DNA from: Pilasporangium apinafurcum
Lineage: Eukaryota; Oomycota; Peronosporomycetes; Pythiales; Pythiaceae
DNA: 64,000 bases
Direction of reading: 5' to 3'
NCBI GenBank assembly: GCA_001600495.1
Contig: BCKE01000011.1
Coordinates: 502,570-566,569 of the forward strand
In this document: in pieces, positions 4,765 to 59,856 of the stretch
Position numbering within the stretch: the first letter of the stretch is position 1
Layout: every line of letters begins with the position of its first letter
Notes under the pieces: generated by a model
Told to the model about the DNA's origin: nothing
What the model saw: only the letters and a program-made list of their open reading frames with translations
Database searches by the model: none
Position numbers and translations under genes: made by a program

Positions 4765-7700
4765 CTACTGCGGTATGGGCATTGCCATTTGCACATCTGG
4801 ATGATCCAATCGACAGCATCCCAGGATCTGCTCCGGTAGTTCGTCTTCAGTCTCGCCCTGAAGCACAAAACCGATGTCGATGACGAGTTTTGTGGTCTTG
4901 TCCAGTAGTAGGTGGATGCCACGACGAGCGATGTAGGAAAACGCATGAATATCGACTACGATCTCAGTGCTGCCTTCGTTGAAATGGTAGATGCGGTGCT
5001 GAGGACGAGTAAGCACAGGTGTTGCGTTGTGACTTACAAGTAGCTTCTTCCCCATTCCAGTAATGCCACATTCGTCTTGGTTGGAGACTTGGGCAATCAC
5101 CTTGAAGCGATCTGTTAAGCTAGTATCGTTGCCTGCTTCTAAAAAGCGCTTGAGTAGCTTCAATGTCTTGGTCTGTGGATCCTTCAGCGTCTATAGATGG
5201 ATGCACAACGGAGAGAATGAGAAACAATTGAGTAACAAGATGGGTTTTGACGTTGAGTGGGATATAGGATTCGCACCTCATGGACTGAGTTTGGAATTTT
5301 CCAATAGAGAACTAAGCTGTAACCAGGACCATCATATGTTGCTTCACCCCAAACGCTCGGTCCATACGAAGGAAGCTACAGCCAGTAACATTACTATGAG
5401 AATAGCGTCCTAGACTCTTGCCAAGTATCCAGACGCTTACCTGAGCATTGATAATGAATAGCTTCTCGTCAACAAACTCTTCCGGTAACTCAACTCGCTG
5501 CGAGATCAAATCAACTTTTCGATCTGTTCGAAGCAAATCAGCAGCAAGAAACTCGAAAAGCGCAGGCTCTGAGGGCTATGATATACGAACGTAATGTGTC
5601 AGGAATAGTCCAGACCATTTTGTTTCCAATATTGTCCATACCTGCTTTCTCCTCGATTTCTTATAGTCAGAACCTCGAATGGAAAAGAACTCAGCCTTGG
5701 TTGTAGTCCATGAGTGAGGAACATTGCTAGATTTGCCGCTAGGGATCATCTCGGTTCGCTTCATTGAACTACCCATGACAAATTTCTCAAAAACTCCACC
5801 CATACCCAGCCCCATTCCTGGGATGCCAGAGCTACCAGTGCTTGGCATACGTTCCAATCCAACGAGTCCCATCGAACTCCCGCCAAAAGATGTTGCTTTG
5901 TGCAAACAACAATTCAGTGGATCTCCACATTGTGAGATATCTGTGCCTAAAATTGCGGTGTCAACATTCCCTTGATGTTCTGAGGTTTTCCTATCACTAC
6001 CGACGTTCATTGCCGGAATTGGATATAGTGGACGTGGATTGTAGGTGCTCATCACAAATCCGCACGTCACCGATATGCACACAAATACCTTCCATAGCAC
6101 GTGCTCGCTAGCCAAACATTTCAAGGCCACAATATTCAGTACAAAGCCCACAATGAGACACTGCTTCGTTCCATCAATAGTAACTTGAAGTCTCCACTGT
6201 GACGGAACTAGAGGCTGCGGAACCGGAAAGTGTGTTCGAATTGGAGGTAATGAAGGCTTCGATGGGGCTGGAGCCGATGGAGCTGAAAGGGATGTCGTAT
6301 CAGTTTCCTTCTTTAAGGTTGATGTTCTCCTTTCTTCTGCGTTTTCATCGGGTGAAATTGTTGATGGCGTGTCAAACGGTAGTTCGTGCCCTCCAGATTC
6401 TTTTTGCTTCTGTTGCTCCTGTTGCAGTTTCTGTCGGTACAGTTGTTGATGAGATAAAACAGGACCTACATGGACATCCACATATGAGGGAGTGGTCACC
6501 AACAGTCAAAATAACCACAAACTGTAGCCTCATATCCGTTACCTTTGTCTGAAGAAACATTTTGAGTGTGCTTTCGATTTATAACTTCTGCAATAGCGTG
6601 GGTCCAGTGGTCAAAGTCAACCTCGTTATCTGCGCATAACTGGTAATAACACCAAGAGCAACGATTAGTCACTGCACAGTGTTGTTAGAGCTCTGCAAAT
6701 TGATATCGTACCTTGAACTGCACTCCACGTTTCGACTCGATGTCCTGCAATGACAGAGTTGAAATTTGGAAATAATAGCTGGTCGGCGCATTCTTTGCAA
6801 ATGACTTCTCAAACAGCAGTGACACGTTGTCCATGTTTAAATCCAAATCGCCGCGAAACCACGGATGGGCCTTGTTCAAATAAAGTAGCTGGTGCTTATC
6901 CTGTTGGCCTTCATCATTCGCTCCAGACTTTGTAATTGCCGTATCCTTCGCTGCCGTTACTGTCTCCATCGGTCCTCGTACCCCATCTGACATAGAGGGA
7001 GCACTTGAGTTACTATTTGTCTTGATCACTTGATTTTGTGATTGGCCAAGCATCTTCTCGCCAGCAACTGGATCTTGTTCCTCCATATGAACGATGTTTC
7101 CGTGTGAAGACGACGGGATATGGTTTGCTGGATTGTGGCGATAATATGATATTATCCCTTTCTGCCTATCCAGTACAAACCACCGCCGATGCCACGATCG
7201 TTTCGACCACTTCCCATCGCTGATTTTGTGCAAGTAGCCGCAGACGTAATCTTTGCTGATTTGCGATTCTGAAGAGAATGAGTATCCCGCAGCAAGAAGC
7301 GCTGACGCTGCTGGATCCGCATCGGCGTAGTGTGTTTTACCATGGGACGCCTGGTGAACCTGTGACTTGCCAGCATGTAAAATACTTCGACCAACCTTTG
7401 ATATGCCACTACCAACAGTCTTTCCAATATGTCTTCCCATTTTCTGTACTCCACGAGGCCGTGACGACGTTTTACCTGTGCCTGATCCGCGTCGACCACT
7501 TGGAGTAGACGAGCCATTGTTAAATAATGGCGTCGTAGCAGTGGCTTCGTCATGGTCTCCATGATGTGATTGGAACTCGCCAAAGAGTATATCTGGGTCA
7601 GGCGTCGGAAGATCGTCTTGACTGTCGCGCAGACCACCATCATGGAAACTACCTGCCATATCTTCCATTTCAGATATCTGATCGGAGTCGTATAATTCAT

Positions 7701-9075
7701 CCGAGTCATCTCCGCTATCTTCGCCACCAATAAAATCAAAGGAGCTGAACTGATTCCCGCTCTTGCTCTTATCAGCGCGGCATGATGGACTATGGTTTAA
7801 TAGGTCTCTATTTGTTCATGTCAGCACAGATCAAATGAGTGGGTTCGTGTAGTTTAGTGGATATTTCACCAATGAAGCGCTAGAAATATGAACGTACGTA
7901 TTGGCCAAGTGTTCTTCGCTTGTGTGAATCGAGAGGGGACTGGACGGAAGTGTGGACGGAGGCAAATGGTAAGCTAGAAACTATCATACATCAAAACGAA
8001 ATCCAAGAGAAAGTAAATATTAGATCCTATGTCAATATAGCTCACAATTACTGAGCTTGTGCAAACACTTACTTCCATCAATACTGGATAGCGCCGAACC
8101 CATTCAACAAATTTTGAATTAGAGAGTATTCCGCCTGCTGGAATGTTACATTCTTCAAATGCTGCATAGAATTTCTGCACAACAACGAAAGGAAATTAAA
8201 ACTACATCACTACATGACTGCACGAGGCAAGCAATCTCAAAGACGAACCTTTGGGACGGAATTAAAGTCTGCCAAGTACTCCAACAGACTGTAATAATCC
8301 GTTTCTGTAATGACCCCTTCTTCTTCTCTAAATAAAATGCAACAATGTACACGCCATCAGATGTGCACATGATGATCCAAGATTGGAAGCAGCAATGTGA
8401 CTGGACAAAGTACCTCTCTCCCGAGTACACGATATTGTACATGGAAAACACATAGCTAATTCGATCTTCCGTGTTACCACTATAGCAACATCATCCACAC
8501 GTATACACACAATTACAAACTGTCACCAGTCAATCAAGTAAGGTGATCAATGCTGAAGCTTACTCATAGCATAACGCGAGGATACTGATGAACGCCTCCT
8601 TCGAGATCCGATCCCCATTTAATTCCTCAAAACACTTCATCGTCGCTTCTATACAAATCCATGCACAGCATCGAAGAATTGATTGGATTAGCTTTCCATA
8701 GCACTTACAGATATATAGCAGAAACAGAATGTAGTTCCTCACCTCCAAAGAGGGCACGGAAGAGCTTGGACGACACCAATTCCTCTTTCTTTGCATAGAA
8801 TCGATGTTGCTCGTCTTCGACCGCATCACCCTATAATATACGTGGGTAGCACCTACGTTATTCATCTAAGAACGCCCTTGTTTGACGTTAGTGATTCGAT
8901 TCGGAATTGTTGATGTACCTTGAACGTAAGCCATGCCACAGTGAATTCACCCGCATCGACTATACAACACACAACAATGTCTACAACGTGAGCTTCGCAC
9001 AGCCATGAGAAAGCCCAGCTAGCCACTCGTACATGGACGGAAAAATGTTCGCTCTTTCGACGCTGTCGCCCCCAT
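4765..9075 (-). CDS. EF-hand-like/PH/EDR2-C (DUF1336) fusion protein with N-myristoylation signal
   Basis: Fourteen exons read by eye on the minus strand: 9075-9033, 8959-8919, 8830-8743, 8648-8564, 8479-8414, 8327-8249, 8174-8073, 7973-7894, 7807-6712, 6639-6543, 6465-5642, 5575-5441, 5375-5277 and 5190-4765. They add up to 1087 codons in one frame. The protein begins MGATASK, a consensus N-myristoylation signal. Residues ~15-170 form paired helices like a calcineurin-B/EF-hand protein with degenerate Ca loops. A PH domain (~380-590) carries a long internal insertion. A hydrophobic hairpin lies at ~695-731. The C-terminus (~835-1075) is the EDR2-C domain: FSIRGSDYKK, ALFEFLAADLL, GYSLVLYWKIP, LVIDIGFVLQ and ELPEQILG. 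Plant EDR2 binds phosphoinositides at endomembranes but carries a START domain, which is absent here. A membrane or lipid-contact role is inferred. Exon 8 and its junction to exon 9 are the least certain part. Confidence 0.85.
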
Positions 9076-9371: not shown

Positions 9372-10621
9372 CTAGAGAGCTACTTGCGGAAGTGTCTTCA
9401 TGGACGCGTGTACATGAGCTTGGAAGTAGTGTAAGGATGACATTGAGACATTCTCATGGAGCGTACGCTGTAGTTTGGTCTTGCTATGTGCCTTTAGCAG
9501 CGCTATGGAGAGTCCTGCTGCTGCTCTTGATGTTGTTGTTGAGGTGCGTGGGGCGGACTGGAGCAGATGTTGTGGGATAGAGAATTCCTGCAGAAGTACC
9601 GCCGATTGCTCTCTCGTGCTGAGTACAAGTTGCAAAATAGAGAGCATGAGTTTACTGGTTTTACCTCATAGATATGAGGAAAGCACGAGTTGGCTTACCT
9701 AACGGCTGTTTGGAGGACGAATAAAGGGCACATGCTGAGGCAATTCTCTTCTTTTGACCACTCTGCATCTGCATTGCTTGATGAAATAATTGTTTTTTCG
9801 TCTCGATGAGGGTCATAGAGGTCGTAGACGACTGGATAACACAGTAAAAGACCAGCGATGGCTGTGCAGTGAAGTGGAATATTGCGTTCATCCAGGTCGA
9901 GCACTCGTGACAGCTCCTGGCTGTGGCGTGAATCTACTAAGTGAAGAAGCTGTCGACATATGCTAACAATCGTATATTCTACGTGACTGAGCCGAGCATA
10001 GTCTTGCTCTTTCTGGAGAAGTATTGGTTGCTCCAGCTCGGCACTGACGTTGACAACCACCAGGTCCTGCAAATTACTCGCCAACTCTATCATTTTCTCA
10101 CGAAGAAACGCCGCCACATTCATGAAAAATACATTTCCATTCACCACCACTGCGTAGATATGCTCAAATCTGTATCCATGCCATGGATGATGATGTGTCT
10201 GTCGTGAGAGCGCTTGCAATAAAAACTCCACCAGATCCTTTTCCATCAAGCAGCAATCCACCAGGCAGGACGGTCGGATACCCATGCAAACGACCATCAT
10301 ATTGTTCATGATCACCCGCAATTGGGTCATTGTGATCCACTTCTTCTGTTTGCGTTTCCGTGTGGATAAATGCGAATAGTATTCAGACACCAAGAAATGG
10401 TGTAGCTCCATCATTTGCTGGTCGGTCCATCTGATTATTCCATCGTAGTCGGCACAAAGCGTGCTGCTCTTGCTAGATGGTATTGCAGAGACGTCACGAA
10501 ACCACGTGGTGGTTGAAGCAAGCTGTTTCTTATCGCTATTTGAGAGAAATCCATCGAGTTTGCCAGAGATTGCAATTAGCAACCATCTCCATTGTCTTGT
10601 TGGTGTTGACAGCATGGACAT
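9372..10621 (-). CDS. C1orf74-like (DUF4504) protein
   Basis: Two exons, 10621-9699 and 9618-9372, give about 389 residues. A frame stop just after the donor makes the intron necessary. Features resembling the C1orf74/UPF0739 family include a LCADYDG segment near the N-terminus, a YPVVYDLYD motif and an NCLSMCPL motif near the end of exon 1, followed by a helical C-terminal segment. The biochemical role of the family is unknown, so none is proposed. The assignment rests on remembered motif resemblance and is moderate. The gene lies 296 bases downstream of the divergent EDR2-like gene's start. An upstream start is possible because the first Met is immediately followed by family-like sequence. 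Confidence 0.55.
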
Positions 10622-11829
10622 TTGTCGTACAGTATTTACCTCATATTTATATCGGATTCCAACCTGCAGTTATATTTAACCCTATTCCACCCGACTCAGT
10701 GTGTTATGATCATACCCGTTAATCTGATTACCCAAAAAATCGGGTATTCATAGCATTAACCGATAATATCCATTCATAAGAGATATGTTAACTCATTGTC
10801 TCAAATATCGGGTTGTACAAAGAAAAAGGATGTTGGGTTACAGCTGAAATTGTTAATTCGCAATAGTACCTTAACCTATCACCAAAAACAATTTAGGGCT
10901 AATAAAAAAAGGAAATTGATAGGTGCATCTCATCCATACATTTCCAGTGGTATGAGAAACTACAGACACCCATGCAACGGAGATACTATCAATGTAATTG
11001 ATTGAATACCAGAGTTTTGACATATAAATGCTTATCTCTTGGTACACACTTTAAGGACCTATCCGATCTTTCTCTGATAAACATGCAAAAATACAAAACT
11101 GAGCATATATCTCGCTATTAGCTGTCTTGATTAGTGCAGCATCGCATTCTTAACACAGGCTTATTGGATGTGATATTCTGCAGGTTTCTTTTTGTAAAGA
11201 CGAAGGCTGCTTAGTTTCGGCACATGATGAGAAGTAGTGAAAACAAGGCCAAAATATATTGTTTCTAGAGGTATATGTATGAATGAGGTACATATAGCAA
11301 AAAAGCGAAGTACATCTATCAGTGCGAAGTGATTCCGAAAATGGTGGCATTCTCGATGCCCTTTGTAATAATCAATGCCAAATTAGCAATTGCCTACTTT
11401 GTAAGACATGCTTCCCAAGTTCGATACGAATGAAGGAAACACAGCTCCAACTGCTCGAATGAGCTAAAGAGTATGCCTGTCAGTATCTTCTCTCTACTAA
11501 TGAAAACAGTGACATGTGATGTGAACGTATTAAACATGACTCTCGAGTAAGTAGATCGTACGTCTGTTGTACCTACACTTCAAGGACAAGGAACTACTCG
11601 CGCGATATTAAGACAGGAATGATAACTGTGCTACTGTCTGGCGGAGATATCATATAGTCGTGTCTATTCCTAACCTTGATTTGTTGGGCTTTTTTTATTG
11701 TCGTTTGCTCTTAGACTATAAGGATGATATGTGGGAAACACTGATGTGGCAGCACGACGGCGATTCTGGCCAAATGTTGCCGCTCCGATTGTATATAATG
11801 GACAGGTGACACCCAATGCAGCTCCTACG
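10622..11829. other. gene-free AT-rich spacer
   Basis: No frame over about 70 codons with recognisable content occurs here. The sequence is AT-rich with scattered stops in all frames. No terminal repeats or tandem arrays were seen. It precedes a decayed Myb/SANT-like relic, so part may be old mobile-element debris. Confidence 0.4.
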
Positions 11830-28588: not shown

Positions 28589-29557
28589 TTAGAACGACAG
28601 GTGGAGCGGATCTTCTTCAAAATCCGCGAGCCACCATTGCACGCGGTGCTTGGCACGACAGTAATTAGTCACGGCAGGTGGACCGACGCGGCTGCGGCAC
28701 AGTGGGCACTGGTACTGGAACATTAGCCACTGAAAGATGCATTCCCGGTGGAAGACGTGGTTGCAGGGCAAAATTACTCCGGTTTCGGAGCCATCAGCCT
28801 CGCATTCTGAACCGTTATGTTCGTTGCCACTGTAGTGGGTGTGAACATCGTGGTCCAAATCCACATCTTCCAGGCAAATCATACACTGAGTATCGGCCAT
28901 TGATGAACCCGACGACAAAGTCGAGGAAGAAGATACTAACGACGACATAGAACAACGTTTGATCGCCTCTTGGTAATTATCGACGTAAATCTGCAACAAA
29001 GATCGTCGATCAGCCTCATCTCGGACGCCAAGGAACTCAAAGAGATGCGTTGGCAACAAGCAACGTGCTTCCGAACATTTCATGGCACTTCCAGGCAGCA
29101 AAGTGCACCGCAGCAAGTGCAGCAGCACGTTCTCCAATTTCAGTTTGCGCTCTTCAATGGCAGCTTGAGCAGAGGAGCCCAGCAACCGCTTGCGAGGGAA
29201 GCACGCTGTCACGTAATCACGGATAGCTTGGCAGGAGCCAGCGCATTTGTCACTGTGGCACGTGTAGACCTCCATAATTTTGGTCTTGAAGGCGTAAAAC
29301 TCCGAGTATCGGTACGAGATGGTCCATTGGTAATTGGTAGTGACACTGGTCAGAGTACAATGGTAGACCACGTGGTGGTCATCGTCCAAAGAAGTAGAGG
29401 CGATATGCACGTCCAGTGGCAGTTCTTGCCGTGGACATTCACTGCTGAGCATCTTGAGTGAGAGTGTCTTGGTCGGCATGGCATTTTCCAAATTGACAGG
29501 AGGACAACGACGCCGAGGTGGTGGGGTCGGTGGAATGTAAAGCTGGTACATGATCAC
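28589..29557 (-). CDS. PX-domain RING-finger protein (putative E3 ubiquitin ligase)
   Basis: Single exon, 322 residues. A PX domain spans ~45-180: a strand-rich start (LDVHIASTSLDDDHHVVYHC), WTISYRYSEFYAFKTKI with the Arg-Tyr-Ser motif that contacts phosphoinositide, then CFPRKRLLG, the Pro-rich/basic loop. A Ser-rich linker follows, then a RING-H2 finger at ~225-290: CMICLEDV, a long acidic insertion, ILPCNHVFHRECIFQWL and CPLCRS. The ligands are C-x2-C ... C-x-H-x2-H... C-x2-C, so the finger should bind two zincs. PX targets endosomal lipids and RING-H2 recruits E2 enzymes. An endosomal ubiquitin ligase is the natural inference. An alternative Met is at 29479. Confidence 0.85.
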   Translation of the reverse strand: MIMYQLYIPPTPPPRRRCPPVNLENAMPTKTLSLKMLSSECPRQELPLDVHIASTSLDDDHHVVYHCTLTSVTTNYQWTISYRYSEFYAFKTKIMEVYTCHSDKCAGSCQAIRDYVTACFPRKRLLGSSAQAAIEERKLKLENVLLHLLRCTLLPGSAMKCSEARCLLPTHLFEFLGVRDEADRRSLLQIYVDNYQEAIKRCSMSSLVSSSSTLSSGSSMADTQCMICLEDVDLDHDVHTHYSGNEHNGSECEADGSETGVILPCNHVFHRECIFQWLMFQYQCPLCRSRVGPPAVTNYCRAKHRVQWWLADFEEDPLHLSF

Positions 29558-36385: not shown

Positions 36386-37681
36386 TTAGCATAACACAAT
36401 GCCCACTTTGGCTCCTTCCATGCGTGGGCACCGCCAATTGTACAGATAGTACATCAAATCACCATCACCAGGACCAAATTTGAGCTCTTGCAGAAATTCG
36501 GCATTGTCCATCAAGCTAAGCGCGTTAAAGACGTCGAAATCGTTCTTCTTGGCCATCACCAGTGCATCTTGCATCAATTCAGTCAAAGGTACCGAGGTAG
36601 CGACATTGTAAAACGAATACGCAGCATTCAACTTTGAGTGCTTTTCGTGGCCGATGACTGACGACGGCAAATGGTAAAAGCTGCAGAAATCCGTGATCTT
36701 ATGTGTCTCTGGGTTTTCGACCACGTATGAGCTAATCACCCCAGCGCGTGGTAGCATCCAATGCGCTACTTCATTTTGATCATAATGAGGCACCAGGTCA
36801 AACTTGGCGAGATAGTTCTTCAGCAAAGTAGTCACCTGCGCCACGTCTTTCTTTTGCATCGGACGGAATCCTGGCACAGCAGATGCATCGGGCAACTTAA
36901 ACATCTTGATGGTTCGAGTCATAGTCATTCGCGGTGCCAATCGAGAAAAGCCCACTTCGATGAGTTTCTTTGGGTTGAGCGAGCGATGGAAATATCGACA
37001 TTGTGCGACAGGCATTGGCAACACCACACCAGCAGTGTATACAGCTTGCCAAATGTTCTTCAAGTTGACGCGTCGCGTGATTTCTTTGATCAATACCGGT
37101 GCAAGTCGTTTGGTACGTAATTTCTTGTGTACGCATAGGAAGTTGATCTCGGCCATCTCCATAGTCTTTTCATACACACGCGTCCGCACGGGGATACCAC
37201 TGATAAACGCCATAAGTTTGTTGTTCTTCTGATTGCGTACGCCGATATGCCACTCCTTGTAGTATCCTGGTGGTGTCAATGCCCACTTGAGAAATTCGAC
37301 CGAGTAATCAAAGCGAAACATGTTGTCATCGTCTTCCACGTAATTCTGCGTCAACAAATCGTACACTTCCTTGGCGTCTTCGGGTTTCGCGAAATCTATT
37401 TCGTCCCACACAAAACCCGCAGGCATAGCGTATGCTTCCTTGCGAATCTCATCAACGGTTTTTTCTGGGTCAATTGCGCCATGTTCCTGCGGGAATTCGT
37501 CGATATCAGGCACTGGTTGGGTCTTCCAAAACTTGTACTCACTCTTGTTCGCCTGCTTGCGCTCAGCACGCTTGTTGTTCGTCGCAAGGTTCAGTTGCTT
37601 GATGACCTCCAGAAATTCTTCTTGTTCTTCGACCGTGATCAGCTCCAGCTTATCTTCTCCTTTCTTCGCAGGCGCGCTCAT
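36386..37681 (-). CDS. NMT: glycylpeptide N-tetradecanoyltransferase, copy 1
   Basis: Attaches myristate from myristoyl-CoA to N-terminal glycines. Single exon of 431 residues from the Met at 37681, the position equivalent to the start of copy 2; the frame stays open to 37798. Both NMT signatures are present: EINFLCVHK and KFGPGDG. The double GNAT fold is complete, the N-terminal [10 protein letters not shown] helix and FKWT-type FWKTQPVP entry segment are present, and the chain ends [16 protein letters not shown], close to the usual C-terminal catalytic carboxylate. It is divergently paired with copy 2 and shares a 198-base identical tract with it. It is expected to be soluble or ribosome-associated in the cytosol. 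Confidence 0.95.
36954..37151 (-). repeat. 198-base tract identical to 38584-38781 (inverted)
   Basis: Base-for-base identical, in inverted orientation, to the tract in the second N-myristoyltransferase. Sequence on both sides diverges at once at silent positions. It is best explained by gene conversion. Confidence 0.9.
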
Positions 37682-38050
37682 CTTGTCTTGGCTTCCTTCC
37701 AGCTGGTCTCCCTTTATGTCGGATTCCCCAAATGTGCGGTAAATGCGGGCTTGCACCCGACTCCACCGAGGTTTTTCATTGGAATATAAAAACCTCATAT
37801 CCGCACTTCAAAGAGCATATATTTGTCCAATAATTTTCATCTACTACAAAATATTAACCAATCAATGACATTATACCTTCTGCTCAATACCCATCAACAG
37901 TAGGTCGCACATTGGTCACTAAATATTTTCAGCCAATGAATGCGCGATTTAGCTGTGCAAAGGATTGTAGGTATCGGATCAATCCATCCACAAAAAGAGG
38001 AAGTGGAGGGACGCGAATAGCTCCATACACATCGAAGTGACGAGAAGCCA
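37682..38050. promoter_or_regulatory. shared divergent promoter of the two N-myristoyltransferase genes
   Basis: The 369 bases between the two starts contain CCAAT motifs at 37827, 37858, 37933 and 38047, the last overlapping the ATG of copy 2. Two-way NF-Y-type control is plausible. The part near 37682-37798 stays open in frame with copy 1 and could be coding if an upstream Met is used. Confidence 0.4.
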
Positions 38051-39349
38051 ATGAGTGACGAACAGCAACAGACGACACCACAGCCACAAGAGTCAGATGA
38101 ACTCATCACAGTAGAGGAACAAGAGGAGTTTCTTCGTGTGCTCAAGCAGCTGACGCTCGTGGACCACTTGCCGCAGCCTACGAAACGGCAACAGGATTTC
38201 CGGTTTTGGAACACCCAACCCGTTCCAAAATTGCACGAGTTTCCGGATGTGCATGGCCCTATTGATGCCGAAAAATCTATTGAGGATGTGCGGCAGACGC
38301 CTTACAATATGCCGGTGGGATTTGCGTGGACTGAATTGGATTTGACGCAAGCCAAAGAAGCACGGGAAGTGTATGAGCTGTTGACACATAATTACGTTGA
38401 AGACGATGGCAGTACATTTCGCTTCGATTACTCGACCGAGTTTTTGCAATGGTCGATGACTTCACCAGGTTATCACAAGGAGTGGCATATCGGCGTACGT
38501 AACACCAGCACGAACAAACTCATGGCGTTTATCAGTGGTATCCCCGTGCGGACGCGTATCTACGACCAGACCATGAAGATGGTCGAGATCAACTTCCTAT
38601 GCGTACACAAGAAATTACGTACCAAACGACTTGCACCGGTATTGATCAAAGAAATCACGCGACGCGTCAACTTGAAGAACATTTGGCAAGCTGTATACAC
38701 TGCTGGTGTGGTGTTGCCAATGCCTGTCGCACAATGTCGATATTTCCATCGCTCGCTCAACCCAAAGAAACTCATCGAAGTAGGTTTCTCTCCGCTTCCT
38801 CCTCGAACGACCATGGCCGCTACGATCAAGAAGCTGAAACTTCCAGCACATACATCATCACCAGGTTTCCGCTTGATGGAATCTAAGGATATACCTCAGG
38901 TGACCTCTATGTTGAACACGTATTTGACAAAATTTCACCTTGCTTTTGAGTTCAATGAAGAAGAGGTGGCCCATTGGTTGCTCCCACGAGATGGAGTTAT
39001 TCATGCGTATGTGGTGGAAAACTTAGAAACTCGAGAGGTCACTGATTTCTGCAGTTTTTACAACTTGCCGTCGACGATCATCGGCAACGACAAGTACAAG
39101 AAGCTTAATGCTGCCTATTCCTTCTACAACGTAGCGACATCGATGCCTTTACCAGATTTAATGCAGGATGCGTTGATCGTGGCCAAGCAGCTAGGCTTTG
39201 ATGTCTTCAACGCACTGAGTTTAATGGACAATGTGGAATTTTTGGAGCCACTGAAATTTGGTGTAGGTAGTGGTGACTTGCACTACTATCTTTATAACTG
39301 GCGGTGTCCACGCATGGCAGGAGCGCGCGTCGGTATGATTTTATGCTAG
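38051..39349 (+). CDS. NMT: glycylpeptide N-tetradecanoyltransferase, copy 2
   Basis: Single exon of 432 residues, collinear with copy 1 over the whole length. The first NMT signature (EINFLCVHK) lies in the identical tract. The second reads KFGVGSG, so the Asp of the usual KFGxGDG is Ser; this could alter activity or specificity. The N-terminus (QQQTTPQPQ) differs fully from copy 1 and lacks its basic charge, and N-terminal basic stretches influence ribosome binding in this family. The rest of the fold, FWNTQPVP entry and WRCPRMAGARVGMILC end are intact. Two retained copies suggest dosage or subtle specialisation; neither can be told from sequence. Confidence 0.95.
   Translation: MSDEQQQTTPQPQESDELITVEEQEEFLRVLKQLTLVDHLPQPTKRQQDFRFWNTQPVPKLHEFPDVHGPIDAEKSIEDVRQTPYNMPVGFAWTELDLTQAKEAREVYELLTHNYVEDDGSTFRFDYSTEFLQWSMTSPGYHKEWHIGVRNTSTNKLMAFISGIPVRTRIYDQTMKMVEINFLCVHKKLRTKRLAPVLIKEITRRVNLKNIWQAVYTAGVVLPMPVAQCRYFHRSLNPKKLIEVGFSPLPPRTTMAATIKKLKLPAHTSSPGFRLMESKDIPQVTSMLNTYLTKFHLAFEFNEEEVAHWLLPRDGVIHAYVVENLETREVTDFCSFYNLPSTIIGNDKYKKLNAAYSFYNVATSMPLPDLMQDALIVAKQLGFDVFNALSLMDNVEFLEPLKFGVGSGDLHYYLYNWRCPRMAGARVGMILC
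38584..38781 (+). repeat. 198-base tract identical to 36954-37151 (inverted)
   Basis: The counterpart of the tract in copy 1, covering codons for EINFLCVHK through LIEV. No differences were found in a full base-by-base reading. Confidence 0.9.
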
Positions 39350-51139: not shown

Positions 51140-52299
51140 CTGCAAATTAGCATGCCCAATACTCGAGTGTAACTTGAGTATCGTCAGACATTTTTCCCTA
51201 CGCTTCTATATGCGTAGGAGATCACCGTAGCTGGAGTTATGCTATGTAGTTGCGTAAATAGAAGAAATCTGTTCCATGAGTTGCTTATTCCTGAATAGCC
51301 ATGATAGCGTGACTGTTCATGTGCAAATGACCATCATTCTGACGTTGAAGTGAATCTTCTTTCGTGTGAACACACAAAAAAAATGTCACGTCTGAAGTCG
51401 GTTCTTAACTGTTACATACCCTTCTCAAAGTATAACCTGGCTTTAGTAAACACGCATATAGAATACAGCCAGATTATGTTGAGTTTAGGAGGTTTCTATG
51501 TCGTTATAGCAAGGATTGAATCCGAAGTTGTGTTCTCTGTATTGAAGTTTATGTCGACAGATGCGAGAACATAGCCAGCCACACCAGCAACAAGAAAAAA
51601 AAAGCACCAAGCATAGAAGCCGAATCGACACGAAGAAAGCCGCTTTCGCTTATTCTTTTTCTTCTTCAACTCGACAATCCGACTACACGATAATCCATAA
51701 CCCAACCAAACTAACCACAGTAGAACGTCAGATCTAAAATTCCAGACAGTCTCCTATTTAAAGCAAATTGTTTAAAACAGTGTTTTCTTCGAAGAAGAAG
51801 CCGAAAAAACCACCCAAAGAAGGAAGAGAAAAAGCGCGAGCCGGCAGACCAAACTTACACGCATACAAGAGGAAGCAACTGAGGCAGTATGTGTACAAGC
51901 CAGAAGCTGCCATTATTATCGATTTGCTGCTATATTCACTCTGCTTTGTCGTTTGTATCGCTGTGATGTATAGGTACGGTCGCTTTCTGTTATCTCTCGA
52001 CGTGCTGTTTGGCTTCTGGAGGTCATTTTGTTCTTGTCCGGATTCCAGAGGCGATCGATCTCTCTCGCTTTCCGTGTCCGCATTTATTAATATCGTGCGT
52101 GCATTGGTGATCGACTATTTTCTTCTTCATCTTCCGAGGATCTCTGCGGCGTGTCTATCTATTTTTCTTTTATTATTGTGAATTTATTTTATTTTATTTG
52201 GGTAAATTTCCATCCGTGCTGTGGTGAACGAAGAAGAAGAAGAGGCGAAGAAGATAAGAGAGAAAAACAACAACACAGACACATCAATCCAGCTATACC
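51140..52299. other. spacer upstream of ATG2, gene content unclear
   Basis: Two opposed frames each combine a very basic start with a hydrophobic span. One is on the minus strand (51705-51496; KKKKNKRKRLSS, then a span through AGVAGYVLA); the other is on the plus strand (51768-52181; KKKPKKPPKEGREKARAG, then LLLYSLCFVVCIAVMY). Neither matches a family I know. The final 100 bases before ATG2 are purine-rich (GAA/AAG/CAA) and are likely its 5' leader. Confidence 0.35.
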
Positions 52300-55200
52300 A
52301 TGCAGTTCTTCAGACACTTGACCGATCCAGCACTAAAACGACTTTACAAATTCGTGCTCAAGCGCATGATTGGTCGTTTCTTGGCGGCTGACGAATTGGA
52401 TTTGGACCAACTGGATGTCCATTTGCGCGCGGGCAAGCTCGAATTATGTGACTTGCTATTAAATGCAGATGTATTGAATGCTGAAATCTGCGAAGCGAAT
52501 GCGTTGCCGTTCCGTGTGAAGAAAGGGTATTTGGGATCGGTGCGTGTGACGATCTCGTATGCAAACATCATGAGCGAAAGCTGCTTGGTCGAGATTGACG
52601 ATATCGAAGTTGTACTGGTCCCGATCGATGCAGATGAAGAAGAAGATAGCGCGTTTCATCAGGACACAGATCAATCCGGAGCAAAGTCTGCTACACAAAT
52701 GTCAACAACAGGAGCTAAACAAGGTGATTCGGCGCCTATTAAATCCAAATCAGCGACAACAGCCACAACGAAGGAACCTGTGAATGAAATATCACAAGAA
52801 GGACTCGATTTTGTCGCCAGTTGGATTGACCAAGTCACGTCGAAAATCAAAGTGACGCTGTCGAATATTTGTCTTCGCCTGGAAACAGGTGATAAGCATC
52901 GCACAGATCGGAATGCGTCGCTGCTCTGCAAATTGGAGTGGGCACAGTTTACGGATGAATCTGCAGTCGAAGTGCAAAGCGTGTATGGCCGCGCCAATTT
53001 AGATCATTCATCTGGAATGTTTGGCTCGCAGACGGCAGGAGGAGGCATGAGCTCTATCGCAGCAAGTTCACTGTTTGGCATCTCACAGAAAGGTATTAAG
53101 TTTCGCGGGATTAGCATGGAGTTAGAGCTTGGATGCGATGAAGAAATCAAGCAGGATACAGGCGATGAGGGCAGTGATATGATCCTCCACCCTATCCTTG
53201 CAAGTGATCCGACAAGACAGTGCTATGTCCAAGTGAAAATGTCCCATTATGAAATGATCGAAGCACCGATGTTGGATGCTGACGTGTTTTTACACTCCAT
53301 TCGAGTTGTGCTCCAACCTCAGCATTTTCCAGAGTTAGGTGGGTTGATTGATGCATTCTCAGCAGAGCCGCATAACAAGATACATCGTGCGGATGGTCGT
53401 ATCACAGCCGCATCTATGTATTTGTCGGTTTGTGATACCAAACCGACGTGGCTCAATGAAGATAATACCGATGACGACGGAACTATTGAGGGAGGCGCAT
53501 TGAGTTTATCATATAAAGAATTCCAGCGAATCGAGCAGTTGTTAATGCAGTATCGCCAGACGCATGAGGAATTAAGAAACGTGCAACGACAGACTCTACA
53601 ACAATCAGCTGCACAGGCGCCTGATGAATCGAACTTGGCAATGTCAAGAGCATTTTCAATGGCAGAAAGTGTGGACAGCGTAGGCCTCTCTGACTTGGAT
53701 GATGAGGAAAGCTTTTTTGACTGCGATACTGGCAGCAGCATGGTCGCCGATAGCAATCACTATGGTTCTAATTTGATGAGTCAATCCATCTACGCATCAG
53801 CCATCTATGACCATGGGGACAGTGACGCTGAAAGCAATGCAGATGCGCGAAGTATTGGATCTAGATCGACAACTGCCGCTCAAAGTAGAGCATCTAGACA
53901 AGTTCGTCATCGTGTAAAAGTGCATTTGTTAGAATGCGATTTGGTGTTGTTATATGACGATATTCCCGATGAAGAGTATAATGATGGAGCAGATGATGGG
54001 GATAGAGAAGTGCAATCCAAGTCTGTGTCTTTGCCCTCGACAGATGGTCAAGAACGATTGGAAATTGCGTGCAAGGATATTATATGCTCATGTTTAGTGT
54101 ACCCTCATTATGCGGCTCTGGCGTTGACAATCGGAACCTTTCGTATTGACGAGAAGATGCTCCCACGCATGTCCATGGATGTTGTCGAGGAAGAGAGTGC
54201 ACTCTTGTCAAATTCGATTTTGATGTTTGCAGATACGTCGCCCAGTACGGGAAGAAAAGTGCATTCATCTGCGAATATATCTGCGCAGTTGCGTTTGAAT
54301 TTCAAGCCTGACGAGGAGCAGCAATCAATTGAGTCGCTGTCCCTGCACCTAACTGCTCAACCAATTCTTTTTGAGTGGGATATGCATATATTGGACCGTG
54401 CTCATCGCCTTATGAAACTGTTGGAAGAATCATCGGCAAAGCAAGCTGCATCAAAGTCTACTAGGAATGATATGGTTACTGAGTATCCCAAGCTGCTGGA
54501 GGTGACCACTGAGTGCATCCAAGTCGCACTAAGATTTCCAATGGTGAATAGTGATGTTATTCGATTTGGCAATTCATCCAAGCGTGGGTTATGTGAAGAC
54601 AAGTTGGTAATTACGCTGGATATGGTCACAATTGGCTCGACATCACCACCTACAGGCAGTGAAGTTGACAAAACTGATGACGAACAAGACAACAACTTGA
54701 CCAAGATTCCACTCCCATGGCTATCTGAATTCGATGTTCGGTTCAACAACGCGAAAGTTGTTTTAGTTACACCTGAAAATGGACTCCAGCGATCATCTCG
54801 TCTAAAGGAAACTATTTTGATTACTGCAAAGACTGACGTTGCGGCGATGAAAGATTGTAGGTTGAATCTTCGCCTTCAAAGCCCATCGCGTGACGATATT
54901 CGTACAGCTATTGCAAGCAAACAAAATATGTCACAGGATTCAACACAGCATCCTGATGCGGTATCACCAGGTAGCCCAATGAGTGGAGACGACAACGACG
55001 GTGGCAGAGTGGGTGTGAATGGCTGGAATTTGTCGGCCATCGAACGAGCAGAACGTTTTGAGCGTGCAGCAGCAAATTCATCTCTCTTTGCTTTGGACAT
55101 TTCCATCCCAATCGCCAACGCTAGATTCATGAAGTCTTCGTTGGATCGTTTGATGATACTTTTTGACGCCTTGCTTATGATCAACCCAATCGATGTCAAC

Positions 55201-58200
55201 GCATACAATCAAATGATAGCCACTGCCGTCGGACGAAATCGTTTGATTCCGAGTTATATGAGTCTCAATCTTACGTTAAATGAAGGAGTCATTAAAATTT
55301 GCGACCATGTGGTGGTGTCTCCGGGTCAATCTTCAGGTAGTAACGTTCACATCGAAGGAGATGCGGACTGCAGCGAAAAGAAGAAAGTCCTCTTTTCATA
55401 CCATTTCGCTTTCCAGGAATTGAAGGTTTTTCAGATATCTCAATGGATGGGGCAATTAGTATCTCGAGTTCATGTGTCTGCTCAAAATATGACACTATTG
55501 GAGGAAGATGATGATTCTAAGCAGATCATTCCGATCATTTACAAGACGCCATTTGGTGTTTCAAGTGCTCCGATTGTATTTGCTGGTATCGACATTATTG
55601 ATCAAACGCAGGAAATGCGAGAAATGAAAGTGGAGCTGCATTTCTCTCACGTGAGCCTACGATATGATGTCACTTCAAAATGGATGTTCCAGTTGATAGA
55701 TATATTGCTGATGGAGTATCCAGCGCCAATTATTCCTCTCGATTCCATGGCTATGTCAGCAGTAGAGAGTGACCAGATCATCCAATCAGTCAAAGAAGGG
55801 ACTTATGAAGTTGTAAAGCTTGCGATTCCCTCCAAGACGGTATTTACGAAATTGTTTATCAACCTGTACGATGCGTTGGTGGACTACGCACCACCTGCGT
55901 TGGAGTCACGAGTAATTGTCGTAGTTGGCAATATTGGCGTGTCGTCGAATGTGGTAAGTGGGGCGTTGATGCAAGGATATCAGATTTCTGCGAAGGATCT
56001 TCAAGTGCACTTAACTCATTCACGGACGAGTTATGATGAGATCGATGATTGCGTCCTTGGCAAGGAAATGTATATGAAGACGAAACGACCTGGCAAGAAA
56101 GACCTAAGCTTTGCACGTGGCACAACCGGAGTCGTACAATCGACTTACCCATCTCTACTGATGTTTTTGGAGAAGTCCGGATATTTACAGATTATCACCA
56201 TGGATTTTATGGACGTGTTCCTACGAAGCGTTGTCCCTACAGACAATGACAAGTTGACGAGAAGAGTGGAGGAGAAGACACCTGTTTCCTCTTTCCCCGA
56301 TCTTTCAGTGGAATTAAACTTGGGCACCGCAAATATTTATGCCTGTTTTGATTCCTTTAACACGTTGGTAGAGTTGTTGTCTGCATGGGCAGATCAGCTG
56401 GCGATTAAGCAAGAGCCACATGACACCACTGCATACGTGGGTTTGGATCGGGTGAACGATACTTCGAGTGTGTCTGTCGTCACCAATTTGAGTTCTGCTA
56501 CTACGAATAACAGAGGGTTTGGAACGTCAGTTGGTTCGACATCAACATCGCAGTCGCCTGGTGCGATCATCGGAGCCAATAAGCCAGTTTTAACTTCAAG
56601 TTTAAGTGATCGTGCTGGCTTCTCTCGCGATTTTTCAAGTAGTCGAGCTTCTTTGAGTGAAAAAAGTGACATAAGTGGACATTATGGAAGCACCGAATCC
56701 AATATCAGTATCCTCGAACAGATTGACGAGATGGCGTTTGGCGGAGGAAAGCACATTTTTCCTGGCAAACATGTCGCCACCGACACGGAAGCGCGATTGT
56801 TGCGTACACGATTGGATGAGATTCAGAAACAGAAAGATCGACTAGTGAGTGGTATTCAACGCGATGATGAAATGTCGGGACCAGAACTGAAGATAAAATA
56901 CAAGTTGGAGGAGAAGAAACCCAAGATTAGGATCAATGAACTGGTGATTGAAGATTATTACGCCGAGAATGGATCAACACGAGGAAGCGTCTTTGGCACA
57001 AACGACAGTACTGCTGGCGATTTTCTAATGGGGCCAAAAGCACAAGCTCAAGAAGAAGAAGAAGAAAATCCGTGGTTTATAGGTCTCTCTAATGCTGCAC
57101 CTCACCTACGTGAAGATGTGCATCCTCTTGGATCGTTACCTGACGAGCAGGCTGCTCGATGGTTATCACCAAGTCAGATCCCTGTTGGAGGCATGCACGA
57201 TGATGTGAACTCTACAGTTTCGTCACCAAGATTTGAACCCATTGAAGAAAAAGCTCCAGTACCAAGGGAGATGCATACCTCACTACATGAAGTGTCTTTG
57301 GATGGGTTGCGATGTGAGGAAAATGCTGATGATGAAGAGAACGATGAATTTGATTCAGATCGGTTTCCAGTTGGAGCATTCCCTGCTACCTCTAAGCACT
57401 GGTGGGGTATGCAAGAGATGCATCCTGATGTCGAGCTAAGCGAGTTACAAACCGAAGAGACAGAATCAGCGTTTTCTCGGCGAATGGATTTCTTCGACGA
57501 TGATGAAATGCTGTTAGGTGATGCAAGCGAGTGTGACCAAGAAAATGCCAACCCGATGTCTATGTCGATGATAGGCATTGGCGAGGACCAAGGAACGGAA
57601 GTGGAGCTCGATTTTGCTCTGGATGGTGAACTACAGTCGAAATTCAATCGATTAATGGACCTAGAATCAAGTGATGATAGAGATCAAGAAGCTATGCTAG
57701 AAGAGGAACTGGAAAGCTTGCATTCCGAGTTTGAATCATCTCAGTTGAATCAACGGGAGCTCCGAAGAACAACTTCATCTCCTCGCTCTATCCCTCGGAA
57801 GGCTTCATTTTTATCCACCACAAATAGTCAGGCACCTTCGTTCTCTCCATCGCTGCTTTCTCCACCAGATGAGCCGACCGCGCGCTGGTTTTATGATGAT
57901 GTTGGCGAAGATGGATCTGTTCGGATGGGACCACCATCTAGAATTTATCCGCATCATATTGAGGTTCCTATTGGTGGTGCGGCAGCTTCATTGTCTTTTG
58001 GAGAAAAGGAGTCAGATGATGCCGTTAGAAGCATTGCTCGAGAAAATGCAACTAGGAAGATAGATGGCACAGCGCCTGTCGTTGTCACGCATGTCTTGCT
58101 TCGCAACTTTAGCATTTGCATGCGCTTCTTTGGTGGATCCGATTGGACGCGAGATGGCAAACAGGCAACAAATTCTTTGCACCCGCTGGAGAATTCAGCT

Positions 58201-59856
58201 GGAGGTAGGACAAAGGCATCTTCGGTGGATGAATCGAGATCAGCTAAGAAGGAGAAACTATTGGATGCTTTGCTCGATAATTACGTACCCTCCAACGGTG
58301 AAGATTTGTTTGGAGGCGACAACAGCTCTACATCAACTTTGTTTTCTGGTGCTCAGAGTGCGCCAGCCACATCTGCTTCTTTCATCGATCGGCAGAAATT
58401 GTCTGGACAGCCATCTCGTAAACGCTCGCTCAAGAGTGGCCGAAAAACAGAGGAAATGCTGGAATTGATGGTCACACGCATTCAAATGCGGCTGGATGTG
58501 TTCAACGAAGATGAATCGCAGCCACTTGCGTCCAGCACAGTACTGGCTTTGGGAGACTTTGAAATTTTGGACTACATCTCCACATCTCAAATCCGAAAAA
58601 TCATTTGCTATTGGAAGTCGGATGTCACCCATCCACGAGAGAGTGGAAGCAGTATGGTCCATGTGCACTTGATGACAGTTCGTCCAGGACCGAATTTGTG
58701 TGATGAGCATCGCCTCAAGGTGAGGATGCTACCACTACGAATCAACTTGGACCAAGAGGTAGTGAATTTCTTGCGCCAATTTGTGCCTGCAGAAGACCCC
58801 ACAATAAGAAGGAATCGGCCACAAGTCTCTTCAGCTCCTGGAGATGATGAAACCAAGATCAGTCATGGCATCGAAGGAACGGAAATGAAAATGTTGAACC
58901 AGCCATCGCGGGTTCAAGAGACGGACGTGAGTCTCGGTGGTTGGTTTTTCCAGAGCATTGATATCCGACCATGCAAGATCAAGATCGACTATCGCCCCAA
59001 CCACGTGGACTACGCAGCATTGCGTGCAGGCGACTACTTAGAAGTCATCAATCTATTTGTACTGGAAAACATGGAGCTCGTACTGCGTCGCGTCAAGATG
59101 AGCGGCATTGACGGATGGGCGGCGCTTGCTGAGCAAGTACTGATGTCATGGGTGAATGATATTTCGCGCCATCAGATCCACAAGTGCCTGGCGAGTGTGT
59201 CGATGCCGCCGTTGCGTCCGTTTGCCAACATTGGCTCGGGTGCTGCGGATCTGATTCTACTCCCGATGGAGCACTATGGGAAGGACCGGCGGCTTGTACG
59301 TGGCCTGAAGAAGGGTGCAAAGAGTTTCCTCAAGTCCGTGACGATTGAAACGCTTAATACGGCGTCCAAGGTCGCACAGGGCACACAGGCGCTACTGGAG
59401 CATGCCGATGATGTCGTGTCTTCTTCGTCAGCCTTACGGAAGAAACAGATTAAGTATCGTCAGGCAGGTAGTCGTATTCAACGAAATTCGAGAAGCATGG
59501 GTGGTGGTGGCATTCGCAGCGCACAGGACAGTGGTGGTGGCATTGGTGGGCGACAGTACTTGACACAGCAACCGTCAAATGCGACGGAGGGGCTCTACCA
59601 GGCATACGATTCGCTCTCTCGTGAACTGCATGTAGCGGCCAAGACGATCGTCGCAGTGCCGCTAGTGGAGTACAAGAAGACAGGGTCACAGGGTTATGTG
59701 CGGTCGGTGATCCGTGCTGTACCCGTAGCGGTGCTGCGACCAATGATTGGCGCGACAGAGGCTATGTCGAAGGCGTTGATCGGTGTACGGAACGCCGTCG
59801 ATCCGGAATTGAAGGAAGATATTGAGAACAAGTTCAAGGACTTTCGTGCGTATTGA
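52300..59856 (+). CDS. ATG2: autophagy-related lipid-transfer protein ATG2
   Basis: ATG2 is a rod-shaped bridge that moves lipids from the ER to the growing phagophore with ATG9 and ATG18/WIPI. A single uninterrupted frame of 2518 residues matches the family length (~2000-2500). The N-terminal chorein/VPS13-like domain (~1-110) has LYKFVLKRMIGRFL, LDVHLRAGKLELCDLLLN and FRVKKGYLGSVRVTI. Long acidic, Ser-rich inserts occupy the middle. The C-terminal ATG2_CAD region (from ~2214) carries WFFQSIDIRPCKIKIDYRPN, DYLEVINLFVLENMELVL, IHKCLASVSMPPLRPFANIG and GLKKGAKSFLKSVTIE, with terminal amphipathic helices (PVAVLRPMIGATEAMSKAL). It is intronless, unlike most neighbours. It is one of the most certain calls in the window. 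Confidence 0.97.
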   Translation: MQFFRHLTDPALKRLYKFVLKRMIGRFLAADELDLDQLDVHLRAGKLELCDLLLNADVLNAEICEANALPFRVKKGYLGSVRVTISYANIMSESCLVEIDDIEVVLVPIDADEEEDSAFHQDTDQSGAKSATQMSTTGAKQGDSAPIKSKSATTATTKEPVNEISQEGLDFVASWIDQVTSKIKVTLSNICLRLETGDKHRTDRNASLLCKLEWAQFTDESAVEVQSVYGRANLDHSSGMFGSQTAGGGMSSIAASSLFGISQKGIKFRGISMELELGCDEEIKQDTGDEGSDMILHPILASDPTRQCYVQVKMSHYEMIEAPMLDADVFLHSIRVVLQPQHFPELGGLIDAFSAEPHNKIHRADGRITAASMYLSVCDTKPTWLNEDNTDDDGTIEGGALSLSYKEFQRIEQLLMQYRQTHEELRNVQRQTLQQSAAQAPDESNLAMSRAFSMAESVDSVGLSDLDDEESFFDCDTGSSMVADSNHYGSNLMSQSIYASAIYDHGDSDAESNADARSIGSRSTTAAQSRASRQVRHRVKVHLLECDLVLLYDDIPDEEYNDGADDGDREVQSKSVSLPSTDGQERLEIACKDIICSCLVYPHYAALALTIGTFRIDEKMLPRMSMDVVEEESALLSNSILMFADTSPSTGRKVHSSANISAQLRLNFKPDEEQQSIESLSLHLTAQPILFEWDMHILDRAHRLMKLLEESSAKQAASKSTRNDMVTEYPKLLEVTTECIQVALRFPMVNSDVIRFGNSSKRGLCEDKLVITLDMVTIGSTSPPTGSEVDKTDDEQDNNLTKIPLPWLSEFDVRFNNAKVVLVTPENGLQRSSRLKETILITAKTDVAAMKDCRLNLRLQSPSRDDIRTAIASKQNMSQDSTQHPDAVSPGSPMSGDDNDGGRVGVNGWNLSAIERAERFERAAANSSLFALDISIPIANARFMKSSLDRLMILFDALLMINPIDVNAYNQMIATAVGRNRLIPSYMSLNLTLNEGVIKICDHVVVSPGQSSGSNVHIEGDADCSEKKKVLFSYHFAFQELKVFQISQWMGQLVSRVHVSAQNMTLLEEDDDSKQIIPIIYKTPFGVSSAPIVFAGIDIIDQTQEMREMKVELHFSHVSLRYDVTSKWMFQLIDILLMEYPAPIIPLDSMAMSAVESDQIIQSVKEGTYEVVKLAIPSKTVFTKLFINLYDALVDYAPPALESRVIVVVGNIGVSSNVVSGALMQGYQISAKDLQVHLTHSRTSYDEIDDCVLGKEMYMKTKRPGKKDLSFARGTTGVVQSTYPSLLMFLEKSGYLQIITMDFMDVFLRSVVPTDNDKLTRRVEEKTPVSSFPDLSVELNLGTANIYACFDSFNTLVELLSAWADQLAIKQEPHDTTAYVGLDRVNDTSSVSVVTNLSSATTNNRGFGTSVGSTSTSQSPGAIIGANKPVLTSSLSDRAGFSRDFSSSRASLSEKSDISGHYGSTESNISILEQIDEMAFGGGKHIFPGKHVATDTEARLLRTRLDEIQKQKDRLVSGIQRDDEMSGPELKIKYKLEEKKPKIRINELVIEDYYAENGSTRGSVFGTNDSTAGDFLMGPKAQAQEEEEENPWFIGLSNAAPHLREDVHPLGSLPDEQAARWLSPSQIPVGGMHDDVNSTVSSPRFEPIEEKAPVPREMHTSLHEVSLDGLRCEENADDEENDEFDSDRFPVGAFPATSKHWWGMQEMHPDVELSELQTEETESAFSRRMDFFDDDEMLLGDASECDQENANPMSMSMIGIGEDQGTEVELDFALDGELQSKFNRLMDLESSDDRDQEAMLEEELESLHSEFESSQLNQRELRRTTSSPRSIPRKASFLSTTNSQAPSFSPSLLSPPDEPTARWFYDDVGEDGSVRMGPPSRIYPHHIEVPIGGAAASLSFGEKESDDAVRSIARENATRKIDGTAPVVVTHVLLRNFSICMRFFGGSDWTRDGKQATNSLHPLENSAGGRTKASSVDESRSAKKEKLLDALLDNYVPSNGEDLFGGDNSSTSTLFSGAQSAPATSASFIDRQKLSGQPSRKRSLKSGRKTEEMLELMVTRIQMRLDVFNEDESQPLASSTVLALGDFEILDYISTSQIRKIICYWKSDVTHPRESGSSMVHVHLMTVRPGPNLCDEHRLKVRMLPLRINLDQEVVNFLRQFVPAEDPTIRRNRPQVSSAPGDDETKISHGIEGTEMKMLNQPSRVQETDVSLGGWFFQSIDIRPCKIKIDYRPNHVDYAALRAGDYLEVINLFVLENMELVLRRVKMSGIDGWAALAEQVLMSWVNDISRHQIHKCLASVSMPPLRPFANIGSGAADLILLPMEHYGKDRRLVRGLKKGAKSFLKSVTIETLNTASKVAQGTQALLEHADDVVSSSSALRKKQIKYRQAGSRIQRNSRSMGGGGIRSAQDSGGGIGGRQYLTQQPSNATEGLYQAYDSLSRELHVAAKTIVAVPLVEYKKTGSQGYVRSVIRAVPVAVLRPMIGATEAMSKALIGVRNAVDPELKEDIENKFKDFRAY

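Follow-up and report, generated by a model that had tools for sequence, protein, structure and literature searches.

A predicted Pilasporangium apinafurcum gene joining an N-myristoylation-type start and an EF-hand-like head to PH and EDR2_C domains

Gene model and other genes in the window

The window, i.e. the whole 64,000-nucleotide stretch of Pilasporangium apinafurcum DNA that was analysed, contains on its minus strand a gene (positions 4765-9075) which, when rebuilt from the raw sequence, comprises 14 exons and a CDS of 3,264 nt encoding 1,087 residues without an internal stop (Table 1). The exon coordinates were taken from the first-pass annotation of this DNA and re-joined on the minus strand, and its claim that fourteen exons join in one frame was confirmed: all 13 introns are of the GT-AG type and are 65-94 nt in length. 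A plus-strand gene across the locus was also considered and was rejected, the longest open stretch there being only 126 codons.

Several other ORFs were identified in the window. The next one upstream on the same strand (9695-10669, minus strand) contains DUF4504 (E 6.9e-12), and its 3' exon would lie on the side of the gene described here. At 28589-29557 (minus strand), an ORF encodes a PX domain (E 1.1e-5) and, behind it, a RING-H2 finger (E 6.2e-11), and an intronless ORF of 2,532 codons at 52258-59856 (plus strand) matches ATG2_CAD of autophagy protein 2 (E 5.6e-160) and, under the cut-off, VPS13_N.

Domain matches bridge introns 3-7 (the EF-hand-like region, weakly), 9 (PH), and 11-13 (EDR2_C), whereas introns 1, 2, 8, and 10 are bridged by none and depend on their splice signals, the preserved frame, and codon usage. 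Splice sites were scored in a leave-one-out manner, using a model built from the other twelve introns and decoys consisting of 280 GTs and 297 AGs; because both model and decoys were drawn from the same gene, this scoring is a consistency test only. The donor of intron 1 was equalled or beaten by 7 of the 280 decoys and its acceptor by none of the 297, and the splice sites of exon 1 are thus good. The corresponding numbers were 13 and 4 for intron 2 and 17 and 126 for intron 10; the weakest donor is that of intron 4 (73 decoys as good), and the weakest acceptor is that of intron 12 (183). For the codon scores, six further long pieces of ORFs in the window, of which one has no Pfam match, served as the training set; these scores ranked the claimed frame first in all 14 exons, with values near zero in exons 8 and 13 (-0.02 and 0.01 bits per codon, respectively), and the best-frame scores of 3 of the 13 introns were zero or slightly positive (0.05, 0.06, and 0.00). 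A single gene across all 14 exons is likely.

Table 1. Exons and protein features of the gene, with positions in the window
Feature	Positions	Strand	Residues or exons	Basis or remark
Exon 1	9075-9033	minus		carries start codon at 9075
N-myristoylation signal MGATASK	9055-9075	minus	start of exon 1	motif match
Exon 2	8959-8919	minus
Exon 3	8830-8743	minus
Exon 4	8648-8564	minus
Exon 5	8479-8414	minus
Exon 6	8327-8249	minus
Exon 7	8174-8073	minus
Exon 8	7980-7898	minus
EF-hand-like region	7972..8752	minus	55-171, exons 3-8	PDB sequence matches
Exon 9	7807-6712	minus
Acidic low-complexity linker	7609..7740	minus	219-262	sequence
PH, first part	7132..7248	minus	383-421	Pfam PF00169 at 385-421
PH insertion, low complexity	6886..7122	minus	425-503	coding-like in frame
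PH, second part	6565..6885	minus	504-586, crosses intron 9	Pfam
Exon 10	6639-6543	minus
Exon 11	6465-5642	minus
Two hydrophobic segments	6044..6160	minus	696-714 and 716-734	hydropathy
EDR2_C	4801..5710	minus	846-1076, exons 11-14	PF07059
Exon 12	5575-5441	minus
Exon 13	5375-5277	minus
Exon 14	5190-4765	minus

Domain composition of the predicted protein

By their profile matches, both EDR2_C and PH are certainly present, as had been proposed. EDR2_C (PF07059) was matched with E 6e-50 and 170.5 bits (gathering score 24.7) over positions 1-211 of a profile of 213, and exon 14 alone, which encodes half of the domain (profile 98-211), gave E 1.8e-29. In the PDB, the EDR2_C region matched RBL4 (8fre) with E 4e-4 over 27 residues, no stretch passing alone. 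A PHROGs search with exon 14 only found nothing, and exon 14 had no relative in viral or prokaryote contigs; in total, three scans of these contigs with exon 14 and the PH piece yielded no true relative, which is expected because the gene is eukaryotic.

The PH domain (PF00169) was matched in the whole protein with E 4.5e-9 and 37.2 bits (gathering cut-off 25.1), its first part being matched also from the exon alone. When residues 426-502 were left out, the match became continuous (E 4.4e-12, 46.9 bits, profile 4-104 of 105), which bears out the earlier description of a PH domain with a big insertion, here of ~77 residues (about 426-502). The insertion matches no Pfam family at E up to 10. That it is an unspliced intron was rejected, since residues 422-505 are free of stops and have an in-frame score of 0.31 bits per codon; in residues 385-421, which are certain PH, the claimed frame scores worst (-0.16 versus -0.10 and -0.03). 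Sequence matches of the PH domain in the PDB include TBC1D2, PLEKHA-type PH, SBF1, ORP11, and PLEKHA7, a set that does not single out PI4P binders. The fold predicted for the single-exon PH piece without an alignment had a mean pLDDT of 34.6. When prokaryote contigs were searched with the PH piece, a single locus came up, L001 in a Caulobacterales MAG (E 7e-6 among candidates), which matches the PH insertion only (E 4e-5 by tblastn versus this locus alone; 37% identity between L001 1595-1774 and residues 425-492). The L001 ORF, by eye a biotin carboxylase-like bacterial ORF, contains the 8-residue search seed exactly, and the similarity extends past the seed; with the seed located there and no family in the insertion, the match was rejected as chance.

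The first-pass annotation had also inferred that START is replaced here, a wording that would imply descent; no Pfam match to START was obtained in the whole protein at E up to 1; an ORP domain was likewise not found by Pfam in the whole protein. Two FFAT-like patterns (PMC3261905) had no match in the protein, and both would also miss the variant of EDR2 itself, which has Ile at position 4 according to a passage of the same paper. Because the patterns miss this variant and EFFSIRG (residues 852-858, at the start of EDR2_C) is a near miss to them, some room is left for an FFAT-like motif.

Exon 11 (residues 595-868), which encodes most of the region separating PH from EDR2_C, matches no Pfam family at E up to 10. 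Two moderately hydrophobic segments are present in this region, roughly at the place of the plant FFAT-like motif. Their 19-residue Kyte-Doolittle peaks (1.90 and 1.77) lie just above the usual cut-off of 1.6, and the pair contains Lys and Cys. The two segments could form a hairpin anchor; of the hydrophobic hairpin noticed earlier, the segments are thus present and the hairpin itself is compatible with them.

The MGATASK start, which was recovered in the rebuilt gene as first proposed, matches PS00008, the N-myristoylation pattern (MG plus allowed residues). N-myristoyltransferase favours Ser and Lys such as those found here, and Gly2 is predicted to be myristoylated. In-frame stops were found upstream of the start codon, and the next in-frame Met is residue 61. 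Two N-myristoyltransferase genes were also identified in the window, at 36386-37807 (minus strand) and 38021-39349 (plus strand), arranged head to head and 69% identical over 419 aligned residues. N-myristoyltransferase is often single-copy in protists, and the pair is a local duplication; its presence says no more than that the enzyme exists in this organism.

When the head (residues 1-184) was compared with the PDB using phmmer (E up to 10), 17 of the 18 matches were EF-hand proteins by molecule name (best E 0.0075), namely hippocalcin, frequenin/NCS-1, neurocalcin, KChIP, GCAP, NOX5, and a calcineurin B variant, although many are close kin and the 17 are therefore not independent witnesses. 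The remaining match was All0216, whose class is not assignable from its name. The best matches share one register over residues 55-171. By name, EF-hand proteins made up none of the matches in two controls, the reversed head sequence (0 of 1) and one shuffle of the head (0 of 7). Pfam listed no EF-hand family for the 184-residue head and gave EF-hand_8 for residues 56-176 with E 0.19 and 11.9 bits against a cut-off of 28, and an NCBIfam search of the head only found nothing. We consider it quite probable from these matches that the head is EF-hand-derived. The EF-hand-like helices of the first-pass annotation are thus retained on the PDB matches, which are marginal only, whereas its designation of the head as calcineurin-B-like is not: proteins of the neuronal-calcium-sensor type are the best matches and the calcineurin B variant is the last of the 18.

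Calcium-sensing, which had been suggested for this head, is unsupported because no canonical calcium loop was found. PS00018, the canonical EF-hand calcium loop pattern, has no match in all 1,087 residues. Three loops were placed from the hippocalcin alignment and completed by eye. The first reads EELNGDRISKEA, with Ala at position 12, and the third reads NIPAGGILSNSK, with Lys at position 12, while the middle loop reads EREEEGVITETD in our placement or NIVYSG..EREE, which is two residues short, in that of HMMER; none of the three joins Asp at position 1 with Glu or Asp at position 12. Two stretches each agree with PS00018 at 6 of its 8 constrained positions. One is EREEEGVITETDY (residues 107-119), in which positions 6 and 8 are Gly and Ile and position 12 is acidic; the second, separate from the three loops, is DGNTEDRISYVFS (residues 86-98), in which Asp occupies position 1 but Phe position 12.

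Comparison with known proteins and alternative explanations

Contact-site proteins of the CERT and OSBP type combine a PH domain with an ER link, and many neuronal calcium sensors are myristoylated. If the hairpin reading is right, the present protein resembles the former in having a PH domain for one membrane and a separate ER link, but neither START nor an ORP domain was found in it, and an integral hairpin, not FFAT, would provide the link. It resembles the neuronal calcium sensors (hippocalcin, frequenin, GCAP, and KChIP) over residues 55-171, of which they are the best matches, and differs from them in lacking a canonical calcium loop and in being fused to PH-EDR2_C.

Plant EDR2 (PH-START-DUF1336/EDR2_C) shares with our protein a PH domain upstream of a C-terminal EDR2_C and a putative membrane-attachment element ahead of the latter, whereas the protein described here has no START and no FFAT-like match by the two patterns and adds an N-myristoylation-type start, the EF-hand-like head, and the hydrophobic pair. 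According to passages of PMC1955445, the PH domain of EDR2 binds PI4P in vitro, EDR2 is located on the ER, plasma membrane, and endosomes, and DUF1336 appeared, in 2007, to be plant-specific. FFAT-like motifs are described in a passage of PMC3261905 for three of five plant EDR2-subgroup proteins, between START and DUF1336. Yeast Rtc5 and mammalian mEAK7 are described as N-myristoylated and possess an EF-hand-like head behind the signal (PMC11066047, the passages of which contain no statement of calcium-independent action), but carry TLDc where our protein carries PH-EDR2_C; mEAK7 is absent from the 18 PDB matches of the head, and the likeness is one of architecture. In the literature, including the DUF1336 papers, no such architecture is announced among the matches listed, in the passages seen, consistent with the earlier remark that the arrangement is undescribed. 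A set of 273 novel multi-domain Phytophthora proteins has been published, the list of which is in the supplements (PMC2705460); the main-text passages of that paper mention no pleckstrin, EF-hand, DUF1336, START, or PH domain.

Recoverin-type sensors expose or hide their myristate in response to calcium. A head of this kind, binding calcium through a non-canonical loop and thereby controlling membrane attachment, would agree with the best PDB matches being of the neuronal-calcium-sensor type, with the two stretches that agree at 6 of 8 PS00018 positions (one acidic at 12, the other with Asp at 1), and with the middle loop being put by HMMER's hippocalcin alignment on NIVYSG..EREE, where position 1 is Asn and position 12 Glu. 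That loop is two residues short, however, and its position 1 is Glu or Asn rather than Asp in either placement; position 12 is Phe in the stretch beginning at residue 86 and Ala and Lys in the first and third loops, and PS00018 is without any match in the protein, so that we regard such a switch as improbable. The head might instead be BTB-like or another unrelated domain, its EF-hand similarity being due to chance. Pfam gave BTB for the 184-residue head with E 0.014 (residues 34-93) and for a shorter piece with E 0.059, both under the cut-off, and EF-hand_8 reached only E 0.19, but a single superfamily accounts for 17 of the 18 PDB matches, of which the best share a register, and the two controls gave no EF-hand protein; this explanation appears unlikely, if somewhat less so than the calcium switch.

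The join of exon 8 to exon 9 is the softest point of the single-gene model, and two adjacent genes might be present, one consisting of the EF-hand-like exons 1-8 and ending in intron 8 and the other encoding PH-EDR2_C from Met243 or later. No domain match bridges intron 8, its acceptor is ordinary (equalled or beaten by 79 of the 297 decoys), the codon score of exon 8 is neutral, and read-through into the intron hits a stop. The donor, on the other hand, is fair (19 of the 280 decoys), the frame is preserved over the join, the two exons are just 90 nt apart, and residues 196-384, ahead of PH, are coding-like in frame (0.18 bits per codon). A branch-like CTGAC located 13 nt from the acceptor carries little weight, as CTRAY occurs somewhere in 7 of the 13 introns (none in intron 1). 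Two genes are, in our judgement, improbable. An explanation that is compatible with the single membrane-held protein preferred below is that of an ordinary lineage-wide protein, common in relatives and catalogued there as PH plus EDR2_C. Its domains are strong and full-length, and the 'plant-specific' description that PMC1955445 gave of DUF1336 in 2007 rested on the genomes then available. We rate this explanation as evenly balanced, and relatives of this organism likely share the arrangement.

Proposed role of the protein

Of the first-pass interpretation, one PH/EDR2_C gene without START and with a myristoylation signal was upheld, and the calcineurin-B-like, calcium-sensing character was not. 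As for its idea of a double lipid control of membrane attachment, it is reasonable to suppose that several lipid contacts hold the protein, because the PH-EDR2_C gene model is accompanied by a good N-myristoylation signal.

From domains that are seen in the sequence, we infer every step of the following mechanism, to which we give about an even chance. The protein would be held at membranes by its myristate, its PH domain, and the hairpin. The EF-hand-like head may act as a docking module independent of calcium, by the pattern of the myristoylated Rtc5 and mEAK7; by this analogy, a myristoylated docking head fits better than a calcium sensor. The PH domain would read a phosphoinositide, possibly PI4P by analogy with plant EDR2, and the hydrophobic pair would fix the C-terminal half to an inner membrane, be it the ER or a different one, and so do what has been proposed of the FFAT-like motif ahead of DUF1336 in some plant proteins of the EDR2 group. 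Thanks to its long linkers, which are acidic and of low complexity, the protein could have its two ends at different membranes; its most likely role is therefore that of a membrane-contact tether or scaffold whose working or partner-binding end is EDR2_C.

A more specific form of this mechanism, a contact tether in one chain in which the hairpin replaces VAP/FFAT, the myristate, calcium-dead EF head, and PH domain together recognise the far membrane, and EDR2_C, without START, is the effector, is rather unlikely. If true, it would show that EDR2_C can function in the absence of START as a lipid carrier. The occurrence of PH and EDR2_C without START in a eukaryotic protein separates the roles of EDR2_C and START, and, should both hairpin and myristate prove real, this protein would allow a natural comparison of the ways in which EDR2-type proteins get to their membranes.
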